This document shows, one piece after another, positions 3,968-40,847 of a DNA stretch of 64,000 nucleotides (its first letter is position 1; each line of letters opens with the position of its first letter). The stretch spans positions 930,001-994,000 of the forward strand of contig NC_018719.1 of assembly GCF_000303155.1 (NCBI RefSeq), in the 5' to 3' direction. The position numbers were made by a program, and so were the translations under genes. The stretch is from Candidatus Nitrososphaera gargensis Ga9.2 (GTDB taxonomy: Archaea > Thermoproteota > Nitrososphaeria > Nitrososphaerales > Nitrososphaeraceae). The notes under the pieces were generated by a model. That model ran no database searches. It had not been told where the DNA came from and saw nothing but the letters and a program-made list of their open reading frames with translations.

Positions 3968-4156
3968 CAATTATTTATATCAATTTTATAGTCATTTATG
4001 AGTCTTGATTTACTATTGAAGGTTCAGAACATACTGTGCGCTTGAATTGTAGCTATATTACGCTCGTTCGGTCGTTTCATAATATTTTGGAAAAATTCTA
4101 TCTTTCAAAAAGAAAAGAGGTTTTGGCAGCTATATAGCTTGGTTGCCTTGCTGCCC

Positions 4157-4507
4157 TTACTCGCGCTTTACGAGTACATAGTGCGGTACATTTGCGATCG
4201 TCGCGGGATACGAAGTTTTGTATTCCCAGCCCAGCGCGAGCAACTTTCTTGCCTCGCCGACATCCGACACTGTAGCAATATCCACGATGCGCTTGCGCCG
4301 GGAAGCAAATGCCGAAGTGCCCTTGTGCACGTGCTCGTTGCCATTTTCGTCCACCAGCTTCCACTTGATCTTGCCGGTGGCTGGATCTTCGCCTACCTTT
4401 TCAAAGGCTATCGGCTGGTTTGGAAAGCCAGCGGCCTTACAGCGATTGCATTCTTGCATCTTCTTTTGCGGTTTAGATGCTTCCGCTTGAACTGCTGTTG
4501 ATGACAT
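4157..4507 (-). CDS. Unknown conserved-looking protein with CxxC motif
   Basis: A 116-residue soluble protein. Residues 20-23 form CNRC, and the following region (GKIKWKLVDENGNEHVHKG) looks like a beta-rich zinc-associated domain. The C-terminal half is alpha/beta. The start follows an AT-poor leader, and the stop lies 160 bases from the decayed secreted gene. No family is recognised. Confidence 0.65.
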   Translation of the reverse strand: MSSTAVQAEASKPQKKMQECNRCKAAGFPNQPIAFEKVGEDPATGKIKWKLVDENGNEHVHKGTSAFASRRKRIVDIATVSDVGEARKLLALGWEYKTSYPATIANVPHYVLVKRE

Positions 4508-4583
4508 TGGAAAAGATCCGCAAAATCTGCTAATAACAGGTGGAGCACCAAGAGGGGAGGGAGGGTGTGTACGTATGTGTGCC

Positions 4584-5384
4584 TCAGCTGTAAATGCCCG
4601 GGCCTCCGCCTATCTGCTGGTTCTCTTGTTGTCTTTGCTGCCTCTGAACAGAATTTATCAGTTCCTGCATCTGACGCTTTAGCTCGGCCGCTTCAGTCCT
4701 CAGCTCACGCACATCTATCTTGAATGGGTTGTTGGCAAGCTCGTTTGCCTTCTCGATTAGGATGGCCGCGCCTTCTGGGTCGGGAATCCCTGCTATCGAT
4801 GATATCAACAGACCTGTGCATGGTATGCCATTTGAAAGGCAGGCCGCCAAAAGCCCACCAGATATCCCTGCAATGAATGCTGGTGGTGCGGCCTCTGCCT
4901 TGCCTTTGATATGGCTCAGGTAGCCGTGATCGTCTGATCGGCCGTCGCTTGTCATTACTAAGGGTTTCCTTGCCGCTTCTGGGAGGTTGAGAGTGGCTAT
5001 CCCTTCTAGAACCATGATCTCCCTGACATCGTTGTCTTTTGCCCACCTGACGACAGCGTTTAACAGGGGACGGATGCCAGACAAAATCACGGGCGCATCA
5101 CAAACAAGTATGCATGCAGTCCCCTCGTTGTTTGCATATATGCGGAAAGGGTGCCGCAGCCTGCCGCCTATGTACATGACACCGGGTGTTATGAAGTCCG
5201 AGTCAACATAAGCGATCTGGTGCATCTTTTGCTGCTCTATCATGTAGCTTGCGCTCATTGCCCCGACGATGCCCGGGCCGGGAAAGCCCGCAATCAGGAT
5301 TGCATCGTTCAGCCTTATCTTCTGATTCCTTTCTACCGGCCTGATGGCTGTCCTCTCATTGTCCCTGCCGGCCATCATCATCAT
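4584..5384 (-). CDS. PAC2 family protein (proteasome assembly chaperone-like)
   Basis: A 266-residue soluble protein of the PAC2/DUF75 family. It shows the family opening (LIAGFPGPGIVG, about residues 31-42), the VDSDFITPG segment, the RPLLNAVVRWAKDNDV helix and a conserved GISGGLLAACLSNGIP region. The C-terminal 40 residues are helical and Gln-rich. Archaeal PAC2 proteins resemble eukaryotic proteasome assembly chaperones, but their role is not settled. Its start overlaps the stop of the upstream gene (5381) by four bases, so the two are translationally coupled. Confidence 0.9.
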   Translation of the reverse strand: MMMMAGRDNERTAIRPVERNQKIRLNDAILIAGFPGPGIVGAMSASYMIEQQKMHQIAYVDSDFITPGVMYIGGRLRHPFRIYANNEGTACILVCDAPVILSGIRPLLNAVVRWAKDNDVREIMVLEGIATLNLPEAARKPLVMTSDGRSDDHGYLSHIKGKAEAAPPAFIAGISGGLLAACLSNGIPCTGLLISSIAGIPDPEGAAILIEKANELANNPFKIDVRELRTEAAELKRQMQELINSVQRQQRQQENQQIGGGPGIYS

Positions 5385-5719
5385 GTCTCTTCCTTTGGAT
5401 TCGACACGCTACCCAGCATGGTTTCTTCAGTCCTTTTCCCTTTCCTTATTTCACTTGCCACCGAAGAGCCAAGGGATTTCTTGTTCTGTTTTGTAATATT
5501 CTCTACACTTTGCTGCTCATTGGCAAATGATCCTCTGTTCTTGTTGCTCTCGCTCTCCCTTGCAATGTTCCACGTCGATTCGGCATCCTCGGATTGAATA
5601 TCTGATCTGGTGTTTTCCTGTCTCCTTTTGTAATCACCGGCCGAGAGGTGCCTTGACATCTTGGGCTCCTTGTAATCGTGATACTTGGTGTCAGTGTTTT
5701 TCTCCAACCTGTGCGACAT
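5381..5719 (-). CDS. Hydrophilic disordered protein, unknown
   Basis: A 112-residue protein rich in Ser, Glu, Lys, Asn and Arg with no hydrophobic core, probably disordered. Its TGA overlaps the PAC2 start (ATGA), which implies one operon and perhaps a shared role. No domain is recognised. Confidence 0.65.
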   Translation of the reverse strand: MSHRLEKNTDTKYHDYKEPKMSRHLSAGDYKRRQENTRSDIQSEDAESTWNIARESESNKNRGSFANEQQSVENITKQNKKSLGSSVASEIRKGKRTEETMLGSVSNPKEET

Positions 5720-5757
5720 GGTAGATACAGTGCTAAATCACTAAAATAGGTTACAGG

Positions 5758-5886
5758 TCAGGTCGCACGCCTCGAAGTCTCGGTCTGCGCCCCGTCAACA
5801 TGCTCATTTCGTAGGTGCTCCGCCACCTGCTCTACAGTTGGGAAAGAATGATCGCATTTTGGGCACGTAAATCCAGTATCGGACAT
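5758..5886 (-). CDS. Mini C2H2 zinc-finger protein
   Basis: A 42-residue protein consisting of one classical zinc finger: CPKC, twelve residues, then HLRNEH, i.e. C-x2-C-x12-H-x4-H, with the usual Phe between. Short flanks are hydrophilic. Such single-finger proteins bind DNA, RNA or protein; no target is known. The start ATG is the first in frame and lies just after an AT-rich stretch. It is one of seven intact copies with identical spacing in this window. Confidence 0.8.
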   Translation of the reverse strand: MSDTGFTCPKCDHSFPTVEQVAEHLRNEHVDGAQTETSRRAT

Positions 5887-5925
5887 GGCTTTTTGCTGCT
5901 CAATATGGGATAAGACTGTTTTATT

Positions 5926-6210
5926 TTACTGCGATGCCGGTTTTTTCTTTCTCTGCATGCTTACAACTCCAAATATCGTCAGCGCAAGGCCAGCAACCAT
6001 AACAAACAGAAACACGTACTCGCCGTAAAAGTATGATCTGGCCAAATCAGGGTTTCCAAATACTCCACGCGTTGACAGGATATCTGCCGCTTGAGAACCT
6101 ACGGCGATCATGCCGCCAATGCCTATCACTATCATTACGGCGCCAACAATCGTTATGACCTTCTTGTTCTTAGCACCAGACAGTAGACCGATCCCAATTC
6201 CGCTTCGCAT
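5926..6210 (-). CDS. Small membrane protein, two helices
   Basis: A 94-residue protein with two transmembrane helices (about residues 18-40 and 65-85), a loop of about 25 residues and a basic C-terminal tail (QRKKKPASQ). No family is recognised. It lies within a run of minus-strand small genes but is separated from its neighbours by 30-40 bases. Confidence 0.65.
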   Translation of the reverse strand: MRSGIGIGLLSGAKNKKVITIVGAVMIVIGIGGMIAVGSQAADILSTRGVFGNPDLARSYFYGEYVFLFVMVAGLALTIFGVVSMQRKKKPASQ

Positions 6211-6241
6211 GGTTTATGATGCACAAAAAGCAAGTTAAACG

Positions 6242-6481
6242 TTACACGGGCTGGCTGGAAATCTCTGATAGGTCGTCTACCAGCCTGCCAAGCGCCTTGG
6301 CAACCTTTCTCTGGTCGTCCAGAATTATATTGATTGCAGTCCTCTCACGGGGACTCTTTGCCCAGTGTAAAATAGACCTTATCTCCTCGATGTTCTTTGT
6401 TGACTCTTCAAGGTGGCGCGAGCTGGATTCTAGCACAGCGCTCAGCACTTCGTACTTTACTTTTGCAGGGTCTCTCAACAT
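6242..6481 (-). CDS. Small helical protein, unknown
   Basis: A 79-residue all-helical soluble protein with charged heptad-like spacing (for example SSSRHLEESTKNIEEIRS). The start is 33 bases downstream of a mini zinc-finger gene on the same strand, so the two may be co-transcribed. No known domain is seen. Confidence 0.6.
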   Translation of the reverse strand: MLRDPAKVKYEVLSAVLESSSRHLEESTKNIEEIRSILHWAKSPRERTAINIILDDQRKVAKALGRLVDDLSEISSQPV

Positions 6482-6514
6482 TTGATATTGAAGCCAGATC
6501 CGATATGAACTTTT

Positions 6515-6634
6515 TTACAGCGATTCTGGGTGATCCTGTCTGTAATGTTTCGTCAGGTCTTCCATCGCTTCAAATGACGCTCCACATTCATCACAGGTAT
6601 AGTTGTACCCTGCTGGAGTTGGTGATTCTGCCAT
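6515..6634 (-). CDS. Mini C2H2 zinc-finger protein
   Basis: A 39-residue protein with one finger: CDEC, twelve residues, HYRQDH (C-x2-C-x12-H-x4-H). It starts ATG GCA GAA TCA. The intergenic region upstream holds a TATA-like element (TTTACATATAATAAT on the plus strand at 6684, about 50 bases away). It probably forms a unit with the helical protein downstream. Confidence 0.8.
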   Translation of the reverse strand: MAESPTPAGYNYTCDECGASFEAMEDLTKHYRQDHPESL

Positions 6635-6721
6635 GCACTACTCTGCACATAATGAATGATAACCATTACCGTCATCATGTCTCTTTACATATAATAATAT
6701 CAAGTCCAAAGGTTTGCGTGA

Positions 6722-7243
6722 TCACCAGCGCTCATGATGCACGAGCCTTTCTTTCTGGATGCGTTCCATCTTAGCAGGCTTTTCGTCCGGGTATCCGAGT
6801 GCAATTATGCCTACCGGCCTGACGTACTCTGGAATGCCCAGTATTTCCGACACTTTGTCGTCTTCAAATGCGGCCACAAACCCTGCTCCTATCCCTTCGT
6901 TTACCGCTGTAAGCAGGATCAGCATTGATGCAAACGCACCATCTATTACGCTGTAGAATTCCCTTCCGCGCTGACCGTAGCGGCCAACAGAACGTGAAGT
7001 GTTAGAGCATACTACTATCAAGACAGGCGCGTCTTCTACGTGCGCCTGATTCAGGGACGCCTGTCTCAACTTTTTCTTTACCGCCGGATCCCTAATGACT
7101 ATAAACTCTTGGACCTGCGTGTGGCCTGCGCTTGGTGCCCTGCTGGCATTTTCAATCAGCTTGTTGATTATCTGATCTGAAACCTGCTTGGGCAGATACT
7201 TTCTTATCATCTTCCTTTTGCGGACAACGCTGTCAAACTTCAT
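6722..7243 (-). CDS. Nitroreductase family FMN oxidoreductase
   Basis: A 173-residue protein with the nitroreductase fold signature: an N-terminal RKRKMIRKYLPKQV segment (FMN phosphate contact region), ASRAPSAGHTQVQEFIVI, a central DGAFASMLILLTAVNEGIGAGFV helix-strand pair and the C-terminal GIIALGYPDEKP. Family members are flavin dimers that reduce nitro compounds, quinones or similar acceptors with NAD(P)H. The substrate is unknown. Length fits the short subfamily. Confidence 0.9.
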   Translation of the reverse strand: MKFDSVVRKRKMIRKYLPKQVSDQIINKLIENASRAPSAGHTQVQEFIVIRDPAVKKKLRQASLNQAHVEDAPVLIVVCSNTSRSVGRYGQRGREFYSVIDGAFASMLILLTAVNEGIGAGFVAAFEDDKVSEILGIPEYVRPVGIIALGYPDEKPAKMERIQKERLVHHERW

Positions 7244-7262
7244 AATAATACCTGAAAATCAG

Positions 7263-7403
7263 TCAGTCCTTTCTCTCTAATAGGCCCTCAAGCCTTTCAA
7301 TGGCATCCCTTACCATCTTGTTAGCTGTCTGATCCTCTGCAGAAAAAGAGTTGTTCAATAGCGCTATGCTTTGCTCAACTATTGATTTTTCAACTTGGTT
7401 CAT
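7263..7403 (-). CDS. Small acidic helical protein
   Basis: A 46-residue protein, nearly all helix-forming (starts MNQVEKSIVEQSI, ends RLEGLLERKD). It stops 20 bases before the nitroreductase start on the same strand, so it may be its co-transcribed leader gene. It looks coding because it is free of stops, has a good ATG and an AT-rich promoter region (ATATAGTTATTAAAT) just upstream. Function unknown. Confidence 0.5.
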   Translation of the reverse strand: MNQVEKSIVEQSIALLNNSFSAEDQTANKMVRDAIERLEGLLERKD

Positions 7404-7489
7404 TGATATGACATACAAAATATAGTTATTAAATCTACAAAATGGGAAGGAGTAACAAGCGCACCTCTATTGCCACACGCTTCCGCTGG

Positions 7490-7792
7490 TCAACACTGAA
7501 GTATACGCACTGAAAAGAAAATCAAAATATGGATTACAAAACAGGTCCTGCGCGTCGTAACAAAATTCATACCATTTTGCACTTCTATGCTTTCTCTGAT
7601 GTCTACCTGATGACTTTTGTTCTTCTCAAGAATGACATACACATTATGGTCATCTGGCGGCAGATTGGCAATTTCTAGCGACTGTTCGCCTGTGAGAATT
7701 TTCTTTGGTGCGCGGATCTTTTTTCCATCAATGAAAATAATCAACTCGTCCGACTTTATGTTGCTAAGCCACAGACACAATAGCTGTTGCAT
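7490..7792 (-). CDS. Ubiquitin-like beta-grasp protein (Multi_ubiq-like)
   Basis: A 100-residue frame whose residues 15-80 resemble the prokaryotic multiubiquitin (Multi_ubiq) domain. In order it has a strand ending IFIDGKK (18-25), an APKKILTG turn (28-35), a helix with IANLPPDDHN, a strand VYVILEK (51-57), an acidic turn and a final strand NGMNFVTTRR (73-82). Family members are ubiquitin-like modifiers. The C-terminus here runs on hydrophobic instead of ending in a diglycine. No E1, E2 or JAB gene lies nearby. The start overlaps the preceding zinc-finger gene by 29 bases, and a stop just upstream fixes the first ATG. Confidence 0.55.
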   Translation of the reverse strand: MQQLLCLWLSNIKSDELIIFIDGKKIRAPKKILTGEQSLEIANLPPDDHNVYVILEKNKSHQVDIRESIEVQNGMNFVTTRRTCFVIHILIFFSVRILQC

Positions 7793-7898
7793 GGTCTATC
7801 TTGATGTGCTCTTCTAGATCAAACACACTTGGAAAATTCTTACCACATCTTTTACAGTGGTATTTTGGTCTTTCAGGCATTTCCATTACTTTGACCAT
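7764..7898 (-). CDS. Mini C2H2 zinc-finger protein
   Basis: A 44-residue protein with one finger: CKRC, twelve residues, HIKIDH (C-x2-C-x12-H-x4-H). The C-terminus ATAIVSVA overlaps the start of the ubiquitin-like gene in another frame, so the two are probably translated from one message. A single protein split by a frameshift is the alternative. Confidence 0.75.
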   Translation of the reverse strand: MVKVMEMPERPKYHCKRCGKNFPSVFDLEEHIKIDHATAIVSVA

Positions 7899-8023
7899 TC
7901 ACTGGTATGCACTGCAAAATATAATACGGTTTCATATCTCTTAGAAACCGTTCACTCGACAAAAAAGGCCAAGGAATAGAATCTGTTTAACTAATAATTA
8001 TGATGTATGGCAAGCTATATGTC

Positions 8024-8161
8024 ATGCCATCATCCAAAGACATGAAAAAGAACCCCGAGACAAAGGGCGGAGCAGGCCCCGCAGCAAACGCATCTTTCAA
8101 CCCGGAGCGAGGTTACGGGACGAGCGAACAGAAAGAAAAGATCAGACAAGCAAGCAAATAG
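8024..8161 (+). CDS. Small hydrophilic protein, unknown
   Basis: A 45-residue, Lys/Gly/Ala-rich, probably disordered protein (starts MPSSKDMKKN, ends KIRQASK). The AT-rich upstream region has a TATA-like TTAACTAATAATTATG about 30 bases before the start. It resembles the small stress-type proteins at 16303 and 18545 in composition. Confidence 0.5.
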   Translation: MPSSKDMKKNPETKGGAGPAANASFNPERGYGTSEQKEKIRQASK

Positions 8162-35066: not shown

Positions 35067-35203
35067 GGGGTCGTAGCGAAGCCAGGCATCGCAACGGGCT
35101 CCAGATCTAACATACGAGGGCTAGGTTAGAAAAGAAACCCGTGGGTCAAGGGTTCAATTGATAGCGGTTAGCCACCGCGTCAGAACAGATCCCTTCGGCC
35201 CCA
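35067..35203 (+). tRNA. tRNA-Trp (CCA) with two introns
   Basis: The acceptor stem is GGGGTCG with CGGCCCC (discriminator A at 35203). The D-arm is GCGA...TCGC with GG in the loop, and the anticodon stem is ACGGG...CCCGT around CTCCAGA with anticodon CCA at 35101-35103. Intron 1 (35105-35136, 32 nt, after position 37) has CTAAC/GTTAG pairing. Intron 2 (35158-35188, 31 nt) splits the T-loop after position 58: joined exons read GGTTCAAATCC, the consensus. Intron 2 contains a GCGGT/ACCGC hairpin and TGAT/GTCA helix. The spliced length is 74. No CCA end is encoded. Confidence 0.88.
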
Positions 35204-35216: not shown

Positions 35217-35224
35217 AAAATTTA
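35217..35224 (+). repeat. 8-bp target duplication, left copy
   Basis: AAAATTTA directly outside the left inverted repeat, repeated in the same orientation directly outside the right one (38584-38591). The AT-rich sequence is almost self-complementary, so part of it could also be read as an extension of the inverted repeats. Confidence 0.55.
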
Positions 35225-35263
35225 GATTTTGTTTAACCTGAGGGTGTCGCGAACGGTTGTTGA
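35225..35263 (+). repeat. Left terminal inverted repeat
   Basis: It begins GATTTTGTTTAA and ends AACGGTTGTTGA. The two ends are identical to the reverse complement of the right copy; the seven mismatches lie in the middle (positions 13, 16, 17 and 24-27). Confidence 0.7.
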
Positions 35264-35301
35264 TTTTCGGTTGTTAGCATCTTCGCGCTGTTAAGTCTAT
35301 A

Positions 35302-36315
35302 ATGGAACAAGTCAGATTTCCGATGATACCAAGATTTCCTGAAAACGTACCATACTACAACAAGGATGAGTTTATTAGGCACCTACACAAGCTACAGCCA
35401 ACCATGACTATTTGCATTGCTGCAATTTGTGAGGATTGGGACGGTGCCTTTCCGCGTATAGTATTTTGTGCAGATAGATTAGTTACTGCACTCATACAGT
35501 ACGAATCTGGTCAAACGAAGATTACAAGATTAACACCATACTGCTTTGCGCTTTCATCGACAAATAACTCACAAGTATCAGATATGATTTTGGAAAATGT
35601 CAGAGAGAAACTAGAAAACGAAACTAAACATTTGAAAATAAAGGAAATCACAGAGATGGTAAAAGCCGAGCTGATCAATGTCAAGAATACTAGTATTGAA
35701 GAAGATGTTCTTGCAAAATATAATTTAACTGCAAAAAAAGTCAACATTGATCCGGCAGAGTTTGCAGACAGAGCAATGAACGAAGTAAGCAGGTATCGTT
35801 ATCCGTTAGTATTTGAATGTGTGATATTGGGATTCGACTCGCCAACTGAGGCGCATCTTTATACGATTGAACAAGATGGAAAGTACTATCTTTGGGACTC
35901 TCCCGGTTTTGCCTACGCTGGTAGTGGTGGATTCCTTGCATTTTTGCAGATAGCAAAATCACGTCATACGAAGCAAGACCCTGTATCTAGAACTATATCA
36001 TTGGTTTATTTTGCCAAAAAGGTATCTGAGATGGCTGAGGGTGTAGGAAAAAAGACAACCGACTTGTTCGTGTTATATCCGCATTGGGACGATCCAAATA
36101 AGATGGGTGATCCAGATACCGCTTTGTATCTCCTGTACAATCCAAATAGACAAGCACTTTTGTCAACGCTTGATAAGGCATTTGAAGATATTCAAAAATT
36201 TGAAGAACAGAAAATCGAGGAAATATCGCACTTGATTGATGAAGCATTAACGCCCAAAGAAGAAGCCAAATCTGATGATGAACAGGCCGAAAAGAAAGAC
36301 GATGAAGAAAAATAA
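35302..36315 (+). CDS. Proteasome-beta-like Ntn hydrolase, transposon cargo
   Basis: 337 residues from ATG 35302, or 303 from ATG 35404. The latter start would place the candidate nucleophile Thr directly after Met (MTICIAAIC). The core MTICIAAICEDWDG followed by VFCADRLVTAL parallels the Thr1 strand and the Asp17 loop (ADKRAT) of proteasome beta subunits. A later GFDSPTEAHLYTIEQDG and SGGFLAFLQIA also fit the fold. The last 30 residues are Glu/Lys/Asp-rich. Cellular proteasome genes are elsewhere, so this is a mobile relative of unknown role. Confidence 0.65.
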   Translation: MEQVRFPMIPRFPENVPYYNKDEFIRHLHKLQPTMTICIAAICEDWDGAFPRIVFCADRLVTALIQYESGQTKITRLTPYCFALSSTNNSQVSDMILENVREKLENETKHLKIKEITEMVKAELINVKNTSIEEDVLAKYNLTAKKVNIDPAEFADRAMNEVSRYRYPLVFECVILGFDSPTEAHLYTIEQDGKYYLWDSPGFAYAGSGGFLAFLQIAKSRHTKQDPVSRTISLVYFAKKVSEMAEGVGKKTTDLFVLYPHWDDPNKMGDPDTALYLLYNPNRQALLSTLDKAFEDIQKFEEQKIEEISHLIDEALTPKEEAKSDDEQAEKKDDEEK

Positions 36316-36328
36316 TTGATTGATCGGC

Positions 36329-36508
36329 TTACTCTGTCTGTTCTTGACTTTTGGGTTTTAGGATAAGTTTGCCATCTTTTACTATCACTTCTAAATCAGT
36401 GCCTTCTTCCCATCCTACGCGCTCGACATCTTGCGGGGGTAAATTAACTATCCACTTAGAATATTCTCTATGGCCCACCTTGCGGTTGAACCGCCTCTGG
36501 AGCTTCAT
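36329..36508 (-). CDS. SpoVT/AbrB-like DNA-binding protein
   Basis: A 59-residue protein with a swapped-hairpin AbrB pattern: a basic N-terminus MKLQRRFNRKVG, SKWIVNLPPQDVERVGWEEG and a final strand LEVIVKDGKLILKPK. Such proteins are dimeric repressors, often antitoxins or regulators of mobile elements. It lies convergent with the Ntn-hydrolase gene and divergent from the transposase, whose promoter holds three TTAGG-CCTAA repeats that could be its operators (inference). Confidence 0.75.
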   Translation of the reverse strand: MKLQRRFNRKVGHREYSKWIVNLPPQDVERVGWEEGTDLEVIVKDGKLILKPKSQEQTE

Positions 36509-36541
36509 AATACATGACTTAGGGATACTTGTTAATAAATG

Positions 36542-36594
36542 TAGGCACCTAAAGGTTTATATAATTAGGCACCTAATTAGTGTTAGGTGCCTAA
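36542..36594. promoter_or_regulatory. Three TTAGGyrCCTAA repeats at transposase promoter
   Basis: TAGGCACCTAA at 36542, TTAGGCACCTAA at 36565 and the inverted form TTAGGTGCCTAA at 36583. A TATA element (TTTATATAATTA, 36556-36567) overlaps the middle copy. The arrangement suits a repressor binding site for either divergent gene. It resembles the arms of the palindrome at 25692. Confidence 0.6.
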
Positions 36595-36595
36595 A

Positions 36596-37774
36596 ATGCA
36601 AACAAGCACAAATAACGGGTCAGAAGCTCGCATGACTAGAGGATTGCAGATACTTGAAAGTGGAAAGAACATAGTTGAGAACGAGGACGGAAGCTTTACT
36701 GTTCCTTCTCAAACAAGCAAAACGACCTATGAAGTGCGCTTAATTCAGACAACATGGGTATGTACCTGTCCTGATTTTGAATACCGCAAGGTCGAAGCCT
36801 GCAAGCACATTTTTGCCGTAAGGCTATTCATAGCTGCTAACACGTACATCAAGAATGAGCCAAAGCCCAAAGTATTTGCAGAGGATGCTATCCCATGCGA
36901 CAAGTGCGGCTCTATCAGGGTTATCAAGTTCGGCATTGCCAACAAGAAACAAACCTACTATTGCAAAGACTGCAAGCATAAATTCAGACAGGCATCAATG
37001 CTCAAGAAAGCAAAGTTCAATCCTGAATTGATATCTCTGACGCTAGACCTCTATTTCTCTGGCCTGTCATTAAGGAAGATTGCTCGCAGCGTAAGTGATC
37101 ACTTCAATGTCGATATTGGCTACGCAACCATCTACACATGGATTCAAAAGTACATCCCTCTCATATCCGAGTATGTTAACTCACTGGTACCAAAGGGGCT
37201 TTCTGATACATGGCACGCTGACGAGCTATTTATAAGAATGAAAGATGGTGTACAAGTCAGGAATAACAAGTCGGTAGGCATTGTCTGGAACATAATGGAC
37301 AGAGACACTAGGTTCCTGATAGCATCCAAGCTGACAGAGGATAGGGGAGAAGAAAGCGCGATTGCAGCGTTCAGAGAAGCCATAAGGAACGCTCATGCCT
37401 ACAGAGCAGAAGCAAAACCAAAGCAGATTTACACTGATGGGCACAAGGCGTACGAATCTGCAATATCCACACTGTTCAGGAAAAAGTCTATTCGACCAGA
37501 GCATAAGGCTAACTGCGGCGTTGCAAAGCCTCATGCTAACAACAACCGAATTGAAAGACTCAATGGAACGCTGAGGGAAAGGACAAAAGTGCAGCGCGGC
37601 TGGAAATCAAAACAGACACCGTTAGCAGAGGGTGCAAGAATACAATACAACTTTGTAAAGCCGCATATGGCACTAGAGGGAAAGACACCGGCAGGCGCAG
37701 CGGGTATGGAAGTTAAGGGGTGGAACGAATTGCTTGCAAAAGCGATGGATTCTAAGAGGCAACAAGCTAGCTAA
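36596..37774 (+). CDS. IS6/IS240-like DDE transposase with SWIM and zinc ribbon
   Basis: 392 residues from ATG 36596. Residues about 40-75 carry a SWIM finger (CTCPDFEYRKVEACKH), and about 100-130 a zinc ribbon (CDKCGSIRV...YYCKDCKHKFR). An HTH-like segment (LSLRKIARSVSDHF) precedes the DDE domain: TWHADELFI, IYTDGHKAYESA and NNRIERLNGTLRER give the D, D and E. The reading frame is intact, so the enzyme may be active. Confidence 0.9.
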   Translation: MQTSTNNGSEARMTRGLQILESGKNIVENEDGSFTVPSQTSKTTYEVRLIQTTWVCTCPDFEYRKVEACKHIFAVRLFIAANTYIKNEPKPKVFAEDAIPCDKCGSIRVIKFGIANKKQTYYCKDCKHKFRQASMLKKAKFNPELISLTLDLYFSGLSLRKIARSVSDHFNVDIGYATIYTWIQKYIPLISEYVNSLVPKGLSDTWHADELFIRMKDGVQVRNNKSVGIVWNIMDRDTRFLIASKLTEDRGEESAIAAFREAIRNAHAYRAEAKPKQIYTDGHKAYESAISTLFRKKSIRPEHKANCGVAKPHANNNRIERLNGTLRERTKVQRGWKSKQTPLAEGARIQYNFVKPHMALEGKTPAGAAGMEVKGWNELLAKAMDSKRQQAS

Positions 37775-37832
37775 TATATTGCATCTGTCAATTGCATATC
37801 GCTTGTCTGCTGGCAATGTTGAAAGGACTCAC

Positions 37833-38531
37833 ATGGAAATCCCTTCAATAGAATTATCAGAACGTACTTTGACTGACATTTGTACCATTATTGATGAACA
37901 AAGACAGCAAATTGATGGTGAAGAACCACGCGTTACTTACACGGTTAAAGAAAAAACCAGAGATTTTGTGACGCATAATTCTGAGGATTTTATCAAGCAC
38001 GCCATAACTCGGGAACTTGGAAGAATTGAGATTTGGTATTATCATAGTAAGAGAAAAATCAGAATTGATCTAGTGGTCAAGTCTTATGGTCATTCAGATT
38101 TTACAGTAGAGGCCGACAATCGAATATGGGTAGACGGAATAACCAGAAGATTAGAAGGTGTATTTAGAAGCTACAAAACAAATAACGACCTTTTTCACTC
38201 TCGTTGGAAAAGTGCTATTCCGATCTACATCGGGCTGGGTGTTTTATTAGGCGTCACAATCTTGCTCGTCGGGTCATCCTTTATACCCATTATATCAGAG
38301 GATGGAGAAGATAACACTCTCGCAGCATGGACTTTTATTGGTGGCTTTGTTGGAGCGTGGTCAATATTGGGATGGAACGGACTATTCGAGTGGTTATTCC
38401 CAGAAGTTGAGACAGAGTACACTCCACAGAAAAAATATAGAAAAAGATTATTGACAGTGATAAGCACAGTGCTTGGCACTATTAGTTTAGGCTTATTCGT
38501 AAACTATCTCTTTGCTATACTTCAGAACTAA
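37833..38531 (+). CDS. Membrane protein, transposon cargo
   Basis: A 232-residue protein from ATG 37833. The soluble N-terminal 130 residues are charged alpha/beta. Three membrane helices follow (about residues 130-150, 165-185 and 210-230). It stops 13 bases before the right inverted repeat. No family is recognised. Composition is AT-rich, as elsewhere in the island. Confidence 0.65.
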   Translation: MEIPSIELSERTLTDICTIIDEQRQQIDGEEPRVTYTVKEKTRDFVTHNSEDFIKHAITRELGRIEIWYYHSKRKIRIDLVVKSYGHSDFTVEADNRIWVDGITRRLEGVFRSYKTNNDLFHSRWKSAIPIYIGLGVLLGVTILLVGSSFIPIISEDGEDNTLAAWTFIGGFVGAWSILGWNGLFEWLFPEVETEYTPQKKYRKRLLTVISTVLGTISLGLFVNYLFAILQN

Positions 38532-38544
38532 TCCCAACTTTTTT

Positions 38545-38583
38545 TCAACAACCGTTTCTAACACCCGAAGATTAAACAAAATC
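38545..38583 (-). repeat. Right terminal inverted repeat
   Basis: Read on the minus strand it begins GATTTTGTTTAA and ends AACGGTTGTTGA, matching the left copy at 32 of 39 bases. The 8 bases outside (38584-38591) are AAAATTTA, as on the left. Confidence 0.7.
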
Positions 38584-38687
38584 AAAATTTACAACATTTG
38601 TGATTTTATGTTGCAATTAACATCGATATCATGCTCATGACACGCATAAATCATATCCGTTCTTGCAAGTCCTACATGGGTATATAT

Positions 38688-39967: not shown

Positions 39968-40847
39968 TCAAAGATGCGGGATGGCGAGTACGCCTTTGAC
40001 ATATTGTGCCAGCTTAAAAGCTAGCAGGGGAGGAACTGCGTTTCCAATCAGTGTTTCAATTTCTCTCTGTGCAGTAGGAGTGAGTTTGTAATAGAATGGA
40101 AATGATTGTATCGTCAGAGCTTCTATATGATTTAGAACCCGCAGGCCGTCATGGTCTTGAATATGAGCAGAAGTTTTAGCAAATGAATTGTATCTGCATG
40201 TTACAGTTTGATAGGGTCGATGAATCGCCTCCGGTCTGAATGCTTTCAGCTTGGCAGGGCTTTGTGTAAAAAGTAATAACTAATAAAAACAAAGTCATGC
40301 AATCAAACAGCTATCCAAGCATGGATTGTTGACTTTTTAAACAAAGCTGCTTGGCAGATTGCTCCGTGTCAAGATACTTCTGCCCGATTTTATCGGGCTT
40401 AAGCTTGATATTTGAAAAGAATGCTCGCTCACGGCCTTGCAGGACTCCGAAATCTCCTGCATAGAATACCTCTTTGAAAGGAGCCTGAACATAATCAATG
40501 CATTCTGGAACATTTTCCATTATCCAAACTTTGGGTTTGACTTCGTTGACTATTCTCATGAACTCGTCGCACAGTTCAGTATTGCATTCTCTAGTCTTTG
40601 TGTTTGCAGAACTGAACGTCTGGCATGGTGGGCTTCCGATGACAACATCTATCTTTCCCACAAATGGTTTGCCATCAAAAATTCTCAGGTCTTGGCAGAC
40701 TGCATTGCCAATATTTGCTTGGTATGTCTCACAAACAGTATTCCAATTGTCCACTCCTAACACGTGTTTGAATCCTGCCTTTACAAAACCTAGGGAAAAT
40801 CCGCCCGCTCCGCAGAATAAATCAATGAAAGTCGGACCATCGTTCAC
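39968..40847 (-). pseudogene. Cytosine-5 DNA methyltransferase remnant
   Basis: The N-terminal part (from GTG 40847) has motif I FIDLFCGAGGFSLGF, the catalytic motif IV GSPPCQTFSS and motif VI ENV. It stops at 40311. Some 25 bases on, in another frame, the C-terminal part continues with AFRPEAIHRPYQTVTCRY and motif X IGNAVPPLLAFKLAQ, ending at 39968. The target recognition region between motifs VIII and IX is short or lost. No restriction enzyme gene is next to it. It is a decayed orphan methyltransferase or restriction-modification remnant. Confidence 0.8.

Follow-up and report, generated by a model that had tools for sequence, protein, structure and literature searches.

What is the transposase gene near the middle of this stretch of Candidatus Nitrososphaera gargensis Ga9.2 a part of: a compact insertion sequence (IS) among host genes, or a larger unit that carries other genes with it? 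The window analysed here is the whole stretch of 64,000 nucleotides (positions 930,001-994,000 of NC_018719.1), and all coordinates of the element are window positions. Our results support the view that 35225-38583 (3.4 kb) is a single transposon with one intact transposase, carrying non-transposase genes. Very probably it is a unit transposon of an IS6-like, passenger-carrying family of Nitrososphaeria, in which cargo is exchanged between elements; in this element an AbrB-type protein would repress both transposase and passenger. We base the transposon reading on the flush 8-bp duplications and matching ends of 16 elements, on empty sites for one relative, and on the finding that no relative had ends close to the transposase on both sides. 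The features are as follows.

35217-35224: target duplication, left copy, AAAATTTA (8 bp)
35225-35263, plus strand: terminal inverted repeat, left, GATTTTGTTTAACCTGAGGGTGTCGCGAACGGTTGTTGA (39 bp)
35375-35386: operator-like site TTAGGCACCTAC, just 5' of the likely hydrolase start
35404-36315, plus strand: cargo, proteasome-like N-terminal nucleophile (Ntn) hydrolase; likely start ATG 35404, open reading frame (ORF) open from 35302
36329-36508, minus strand: AbrB/MazE-type regulator, divergent from the transposase
36541-36552: putative operator 1, GTAGGCACCTAA
36565-36576: putative operator 2, TTAGGCACCTAA, adjoining the TATA-like TTTATATAA
36583-36594: putative operator 3, TTAGGTGCCTAA, adjoining the transposase start codon
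36596-37774, plus strand: transposase with SWIM-type zinc finger, zinc ribbon and DDE_Tnp_IS240 domain
37833-38531, plus strand: cargo, membrane-type protein of 232 residues without a family match
38545-38583, minus strand: terminal inverted repeat, right
38584-38591: target duplication, right copy, AAAATTTA

Ends, target duplications and the transposase family

An earlier note on this DNA had described 39-bp inverted repeats flanked by an 8-bp direct duplication, and both were borne out. The repeats at 35225-35263 and 38545-38583 share 32 of 39 positions; in 40 dinucleotide-preserving shuffles of the 5-kb region the best inverted pair of 39-mers reached 28 identities (mean 25.0, standard deviation 0.9). 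The octamer AAAATTTA lies flush outside both ends, an 8/8 match expected by chance at about 2e-5, or about 2e-4 in the AT-rich flank.

Within the same family, about ten genomes encode relatives of the transposase at 56-65% identity, and further ones occur elsewhere in the class. In most cases their ends stand off from the transposase by some 1 kb to either side, and they resemble the outer repeats of the window. Ends were located with a position matrix made from 25 ends, and duplications were read at offset zero. Exact 8-bp duplications were found in this way for the window element and at loci L012, L013 (AGCGTAGT), L014 (CGCAGGGG), L015 (GTAACATT) and L018 (TAGAAATT). L005, the second copy in the window's genome, has AATTTTTT once a one-base insertion is allowed for, and nine more distant members also have exact octamers (L097, L098, L103, L113, L115, L025, L026, L116C and L117). 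The resulting 16 elements measure 2,476-4,715 bp, each long enough to accommodate genes in addition to the transposase. The consensus tip is GGTTCTGTT, followed by GGGTGTT repeated about three times within 50 bp.

The earlier note had also proposed to look for empty target sites, and this succeeded for a relative. When the joined flanks of the L018 element (genome G005) were matched to orthologous regions, G006, G010, G011 and G019 were found to hold empty intergenic sites with one octamer-like site and no insert. For the L013 copy in G042 no contiguous match was found, and none of the viral contigs contained relatives of the element.

The note had further held that the outer repeats would be unrelated to the transposase if other copies ended tightly around 36540-37800. 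A compact IS of that extent, lying between unrelated host genes and framed by chance repeats, would suit the usual format of IS6 members, 700-890 bp with one gene (PMC7986276). However, there are no inverted ends close to the transposase, no relative with tight ends on both sides was found, and the 56-65% relatives mostly keep their outer ends about 1 kb away. In some others, L099 and L100, one end may adjoin the transposase, and the cargo would then be one-sided. Since the ends of relatives with exact duplications agree with the outer repeats and the shuffles never exceeded 28/39, we consider a compact IS ruled out, with hardly any probability left to it. Even less probable is a composite or pseudo-compound transposon, in which host genes are trapped between two ISs. 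IS6 elements typically mobilise genes in this manner (PMC7986276), but there is one transposase only, with no IS or IS remnant at 35225 or 38583, and the duplications flank the whole 3.4 kb, a layout repeated in 16 elements. The single transposase and the lack of flanking IS copies rule out this explanation as well.

The transposase contains an IS6-type DDE catalytic domain (PF13610, DDE_Tnp_IS240; 52 bits, cut-off 27). The IS6 equivalog of NCBIfam, NF033587, was its top-scoring transposase family, at 91.5 bits and below the cut-off of 125. Membership of Mutator/IS256 was rejected, both family scores being under cut-off (Transposase_mut 19.8 bits against 21; NCBIfam IS256 31.4 of 150). The 8-bp target duplication, an IS6 trait, is exact in the window and in 15 relatives, and the GG tip and cTGTt motif of IS6 ends are present in most relatives (GGTTCTGTT), the window tips being GATTTTGTT. 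The note's term 'IS6-like' fits the catalytic domain, the length of the duplication and, in most relatives, the tips, but the NCBIfam score stays under its cut-off. The elements depart from the compact single-gene IS6 format (about 0.7-1.8 kb), as they are 2.5-4.7 kb long with cargo. The window element, in which a single pair of ends with a flush duplication encloses passenger genes, has the organisation of a passenger-carrying IS (tIS).

Ends were also seen apart from transposases. At L050 (1233-2617) two ends spanning 1,385 bp enclose a single gene, called DUF3800-like by its resemblance to that of L019, without a transposase, and G014 has about 20 end-like sites with no close transposase. 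This suggests non-autonomous elements or relics.

Regulator and putative operator sequences

The gene at 36329-36508 encodes an AbrB/MazE swapped-hairpin domain (PF04014, 30 bits, cut-off 24.7). About 34 of 37 transposases are accompanied by a divergently transcribed ORF of about 46-90 residues, classed largely by eye, with Pfam backing for several, as AbrB (in several subtypes), ribbon-helix-helix or zinc ribbon. The exceptions are L099, L108 and L026, the last with AbrB on the same strand. We therefore read the AbrB gene as a recurrent regulator within the transposition core. The earlier note had counted three non-transposase genes as moved cargo beside a DDE transposase; all four ORFs are present, but the AbrB gene would not be one of the cargo genes.

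The promoter shared by regulator and transposase often contains repeated, palindromic, element-specific motifs. In the window these are GTAGGCACCTAA, TTAGGCACCTAA and TTAGGTGCCTAA, of the type TTAGGNNCCTAA. L022 and L116A have the same motif and AbrB proteins 54-58% identical to that of the window, yet their transposases are only about 32% identical to it. For L109 and L113, the motif was expected from the regulator subtype before looking and was then found. At least two copies of TTAGGNNCCTAA were present at the promoter in 5/5 elements with this AbrB subtype and in 0/32 others (Fisher p 2.3e-6, or 1.2e-5 if L026 is counted as a miss; optimistic values, because the elements are related), and most transposases of the five are only distantly related. 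Conversely, the transposases of L116A, L116B and L116C are 69-73% identical, yet they stand beside three regulator types and different promoter motifs. L018, with a ribbon-helix-helix regulator, has its own motif of the ACTACTAGTGGTAT type. On the transposase tree, regulator type needed 20 changes (minimum 9; shuffled mean 23.8). These patterns indicate that operator type follows the regulator and not the transposase.

The putative operators are not confined to the core promoter. Five sites in the 64-kb window lie within one mismatch of TTAGGNNCCTAA, and four of them are inside the element. The fourth of these, TTAGGCACCTAC at 35375-35386, lies behind a TATA-like TTTATTA and ends 17 bp upstream of ATG 35404. 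In L116 the corresponding position before the hydrolase gene is occupied by a perfect TTAGGTACCTAA, with TA as its own central dinucleotide. The presence of such a site before both hydrolase genes supports possible joint control of transposase and passenger, and we infer that an element-encoded repressor governs the two.

A different explanation accepts the transposon and makes the transposase, or else a host factor, the protein that binds TTAGGNNCCTAA, leaving the AbrB gene as an antitoxin or a passenger. AbrB/MazE and ribbon-helix-helix folds are common among antitoxins, and Tn3 transposons hold toxin-antitoxin pairs in their transposition module (PMC7157771). In many relatives (L005, L012, L013, L014, L016, L018, L019, L020 and L116B) an overlap of a few bases joins the regulator gene to a partner gene encoding about 120-218 residues, a toxin-antitoxin-like layout. 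However, operator type tracks the regulator instead of the transposase, and in the window and L116A no partner gene follows AbrB. We regard this explanation as rather unlikely and favour AbrB as the protein that binds TTAGGNNCCTAA.

Cargo, the hydrolase and the genomic surroundings

Comparison of closely related elements pointed to exchange of cargo. L017 and L038, both in G016, have cores (regulator plus transposase) 90% identical over 1,342 bp and ends 98-100% identical (the two ends of L017 against the right end of L038), with nothing else in common. Similarly, the cores of L018 and L019 are 85.5% identical and their cargo is different. Cargo thus appears to be swapped between elements that share ends and core. 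Most cargo genes had no match; the families recognised were DUF3800, NYN, retropepsin-like aspartyl protease and a weak helix-turn-helix. Examples at L016 2398-2829 and L017 3010-3546 include an aspartyl protease of the retropepsin-like type (DTGA) and a nuclease with a NYN domain. Models of defence systems matched none of the window proteins and gave a weak NYN/HEC-09 match to L017 cargo. Some cargo ORFs read through the terminal repeat (encoding ...KHPFSTPDEETEP) and stop in flanking DNA, as at L018 3280-3594, L019 494-757, L012 3359-3604 and L014 396-719.

The ORF at 35302-36315 on the plus strand matches the proteasome superfamily (PF00227, 26.3 bits, cut-off 22.4), and a profile of seven hydrolase members matches solved proteasome alpha and beta subunits (E 6e-7). 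Among seven homologues, T36 and D58 never vary and most also have K73; their alignment with T1, D17 and K33 of proteasome beta subunits was made by eye only. The threonine is predicted to be the nucleophile. The start is most likely the internal ATG 35404 (MTICIAAIC...), which would make the threonine residue 2: homologues have their first residues at this Met/Val-Thr, and the operator-like site overlaps the codons upstream. A conserved N-terminal extension serving as a propeptide was set aside, as that stretch holds the operator and other homologues start with Met-Thr. A single-sequence structure prediction had a predicted local distance difference test (pLDDT) score of 36 and was not used.

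Relatives of the hydrolase are present in only 8 others of 300 genomes of the class, and none was found by peptide patterns in the GTDB contig collection. The closest, at 34-36% identity, is in L116, whose genome probably belongs to another family of the same order, Nitrosopumilaceae. L116 contains three elements in a row, spaced exactly 8 bp apart. The first, L116A, is cut by the contig start and has the layout of the window: a transposase with a divergent AbrB gene, towards which the hydrolase gene beside the end is transcribed. In L117, a complete element at 4131-8110 with the duplication CCCAAGCG, a hydrolase gene occupies the left slot. Besides the window element, two transposons of this kind from another family carry the hydrolase; its remaining relatives lie outside recognisable elements. 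A search for the same repeats and cargo elsewhere, as the note had proposed, yielded similar ends and the transposase-AbrB-hydrolase trio of L116, but not the exact four-gene set.

Could the hydrolase be a working part of the mobility cycle, for instance by degrading the repressor or the transposase, instead of a passenger of benefit to the host? It recurs with the same AbrB subtype in the window and L116A, sharing its operator, and in L120 the AbrB and hydrolase genes are head-to-tail. However, it is absent from most related elements, L117 pairs it with a ribbon-helix-helix regulator, and homologues also occur outside recognisable transposons. A role in mobility is therefore unlikely, and we continue to regard the hydrolase as cargo.

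Three elements lie about 20-125 bp downstream of a tRNA gene whose 3' end faces them (tRNA-Trp twice, tRNA-Leu once): the window (tRNA 35067-35203, element start 35225), L123 (1663-1790 and 1914) and L125 (2711-2818 and 2881). Within 114 kb of element loci Rfam detected just two tRNAs, both of them neighbours of this kind, and a target bias is possible. The tRNA-Trp of the window, apparently with two introns, was missed by both ARAGORN and Rfam. To the right of the element, an ORF at 39097-39960 matches HEPN weakly and 40311-40847 is a short fragment of a C5 DNA methylase, possibly another mobile region.

Proposed mechanism and comparison with known systems

In the mechanism that we propose, the SWIM/zinc-ribbon DDE transposase would act on long inverted ends with iterated GGGTGTT and, judging from the comparison of elements, leave 8-bp duplications. 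Its catalytic domain, tips and duplication length suggest replicative transposition of the IS6 type. The core would consist of the transposase and a divergently transcribed small DNA-binding protein. AbrB would occupy TTAGGNNCCTAA sites, three across the promoter shared by the core genes and one at that of the hydrolase, and would keep transposase and passenger jointly repressed until entry into a new cell lifted the block. The two flanks may serve as cargo slots, here filled by the Ntn hydrolase on the left and the membrane-type protein on the right, with cargo and regulator/operator cassettes traded between elements. Elements might trade cargo by recombining through the ends and core that they have in common, or by using an outside end. 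In L116 (2295-10069) and L015 (817-834), copies arranged in tandem with spacers of 8 bp have a geometry that would suit both routes. Element B of L116 is bordered by CGATTAAA and its reverse complement TTTAATCG, which would fit inversion or intramolecular transposition but is no proof of the replicative cointegrates typical of IS6.

Several points weigh against this reading. The window ends are only 82% alike, and the window tip is GA instead of GG. The nearest copy in the same genome is only 63% identical, so that the window copy need not have moved recently. No empty site was obtained for it in 70 genomes searched with its flanks, where the tRNA side matched nearly everywhere and the right side, lacking an orthologue, nowhere. 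The assignment of regulator classes, largely by eye, belongs here too. The transposase tree yields only four independent regulator-operator pairs, of which three to four agree and none disagrees (p 0.125), and L026 has a related AbrB with TTATGGYRCCATAA and a same-strand layout. Both the activity and the role of the hydrolase are putative, and what the promoters display is sequence covariation, repression being our interpretation of it.

On balance, we lean towards a wider view as well: that class-wide archaeal unit transposons use an exchangeable repressor/operator cassette (AbrB, ribbon-helix-helix or zinc ribbon) to control both the transposase and a replaceable passenger, which would form a small regulon, with proteasome-like peptidases as recurrent mobile cargo. 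A review of IS6 lists a single passenger-carrying member, ISDsp3 (PMC7986276). A survey of thaumarchaeal mobile elements counted 83 ISs in N. gargensis and placed composite DNA transposons with passenger genes among the classes undetected in archaea (PMC6563490). The family described here bears on both statements. As the earlier note had surmised, our literature search found no description of it (subscription papers and ISfinder lay outside its reach), and these passenger-carrying jumping genes are widespread and apparently undescribed. They offer small, countable units for following gene exchange, a testable rule by which regulator type predicts operator sequence, and a view of the traffic of short genes (proteasome-like, NYN, retropepsin-like, DUF3800) between ammonia-oxidising archaea.

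The hydrolase shares its profile match and the by-eye correspondence of T36, D58 and K73 with 20S proteasome beta subunits and proteasome-like Ntn hydrolases. It differs as a separate, mobile lineage (about 22-35% identity among members) with no known partner or ATPase in the element. The Tn3 transposase is unrelated to that of the present family. Tn3 elements with toxin-antitoxin pairs (PMC7157771) resemble it in having antitoxin-like DNA-binding proteins beside the transposition genes, exchanged between elements, whereas here no toxin was recognised and the regulator is divergent from the transposase. The long zinc-finger clades h and i of IS6 (PMC7986276; PMC6807381) share DDE_Tnp_IS240, N-terminal zinc motifs, 8-bp duplications and, as to most relatives of the window element, CTGT tips. 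The known ones are clostridial, single-gene and up to about 1.8 kb, with ends of 15-20 bp, whereas the present family has a SWIM finger, ends of about 50 bp with iterated motifs, a length of 2.5-4.7 kb, a divergent regulator and cargo. The tIS ISDsp3 (PMC7986276) is likewise a unit transposon whose single pair of ends encloses passenger genes, and it is a single copy with one hypothetical passenger; the family to which the window element belongs is class-wide, with interchangeable cargo on both sides and what appears to be an exchanged regulator/operator cassette.

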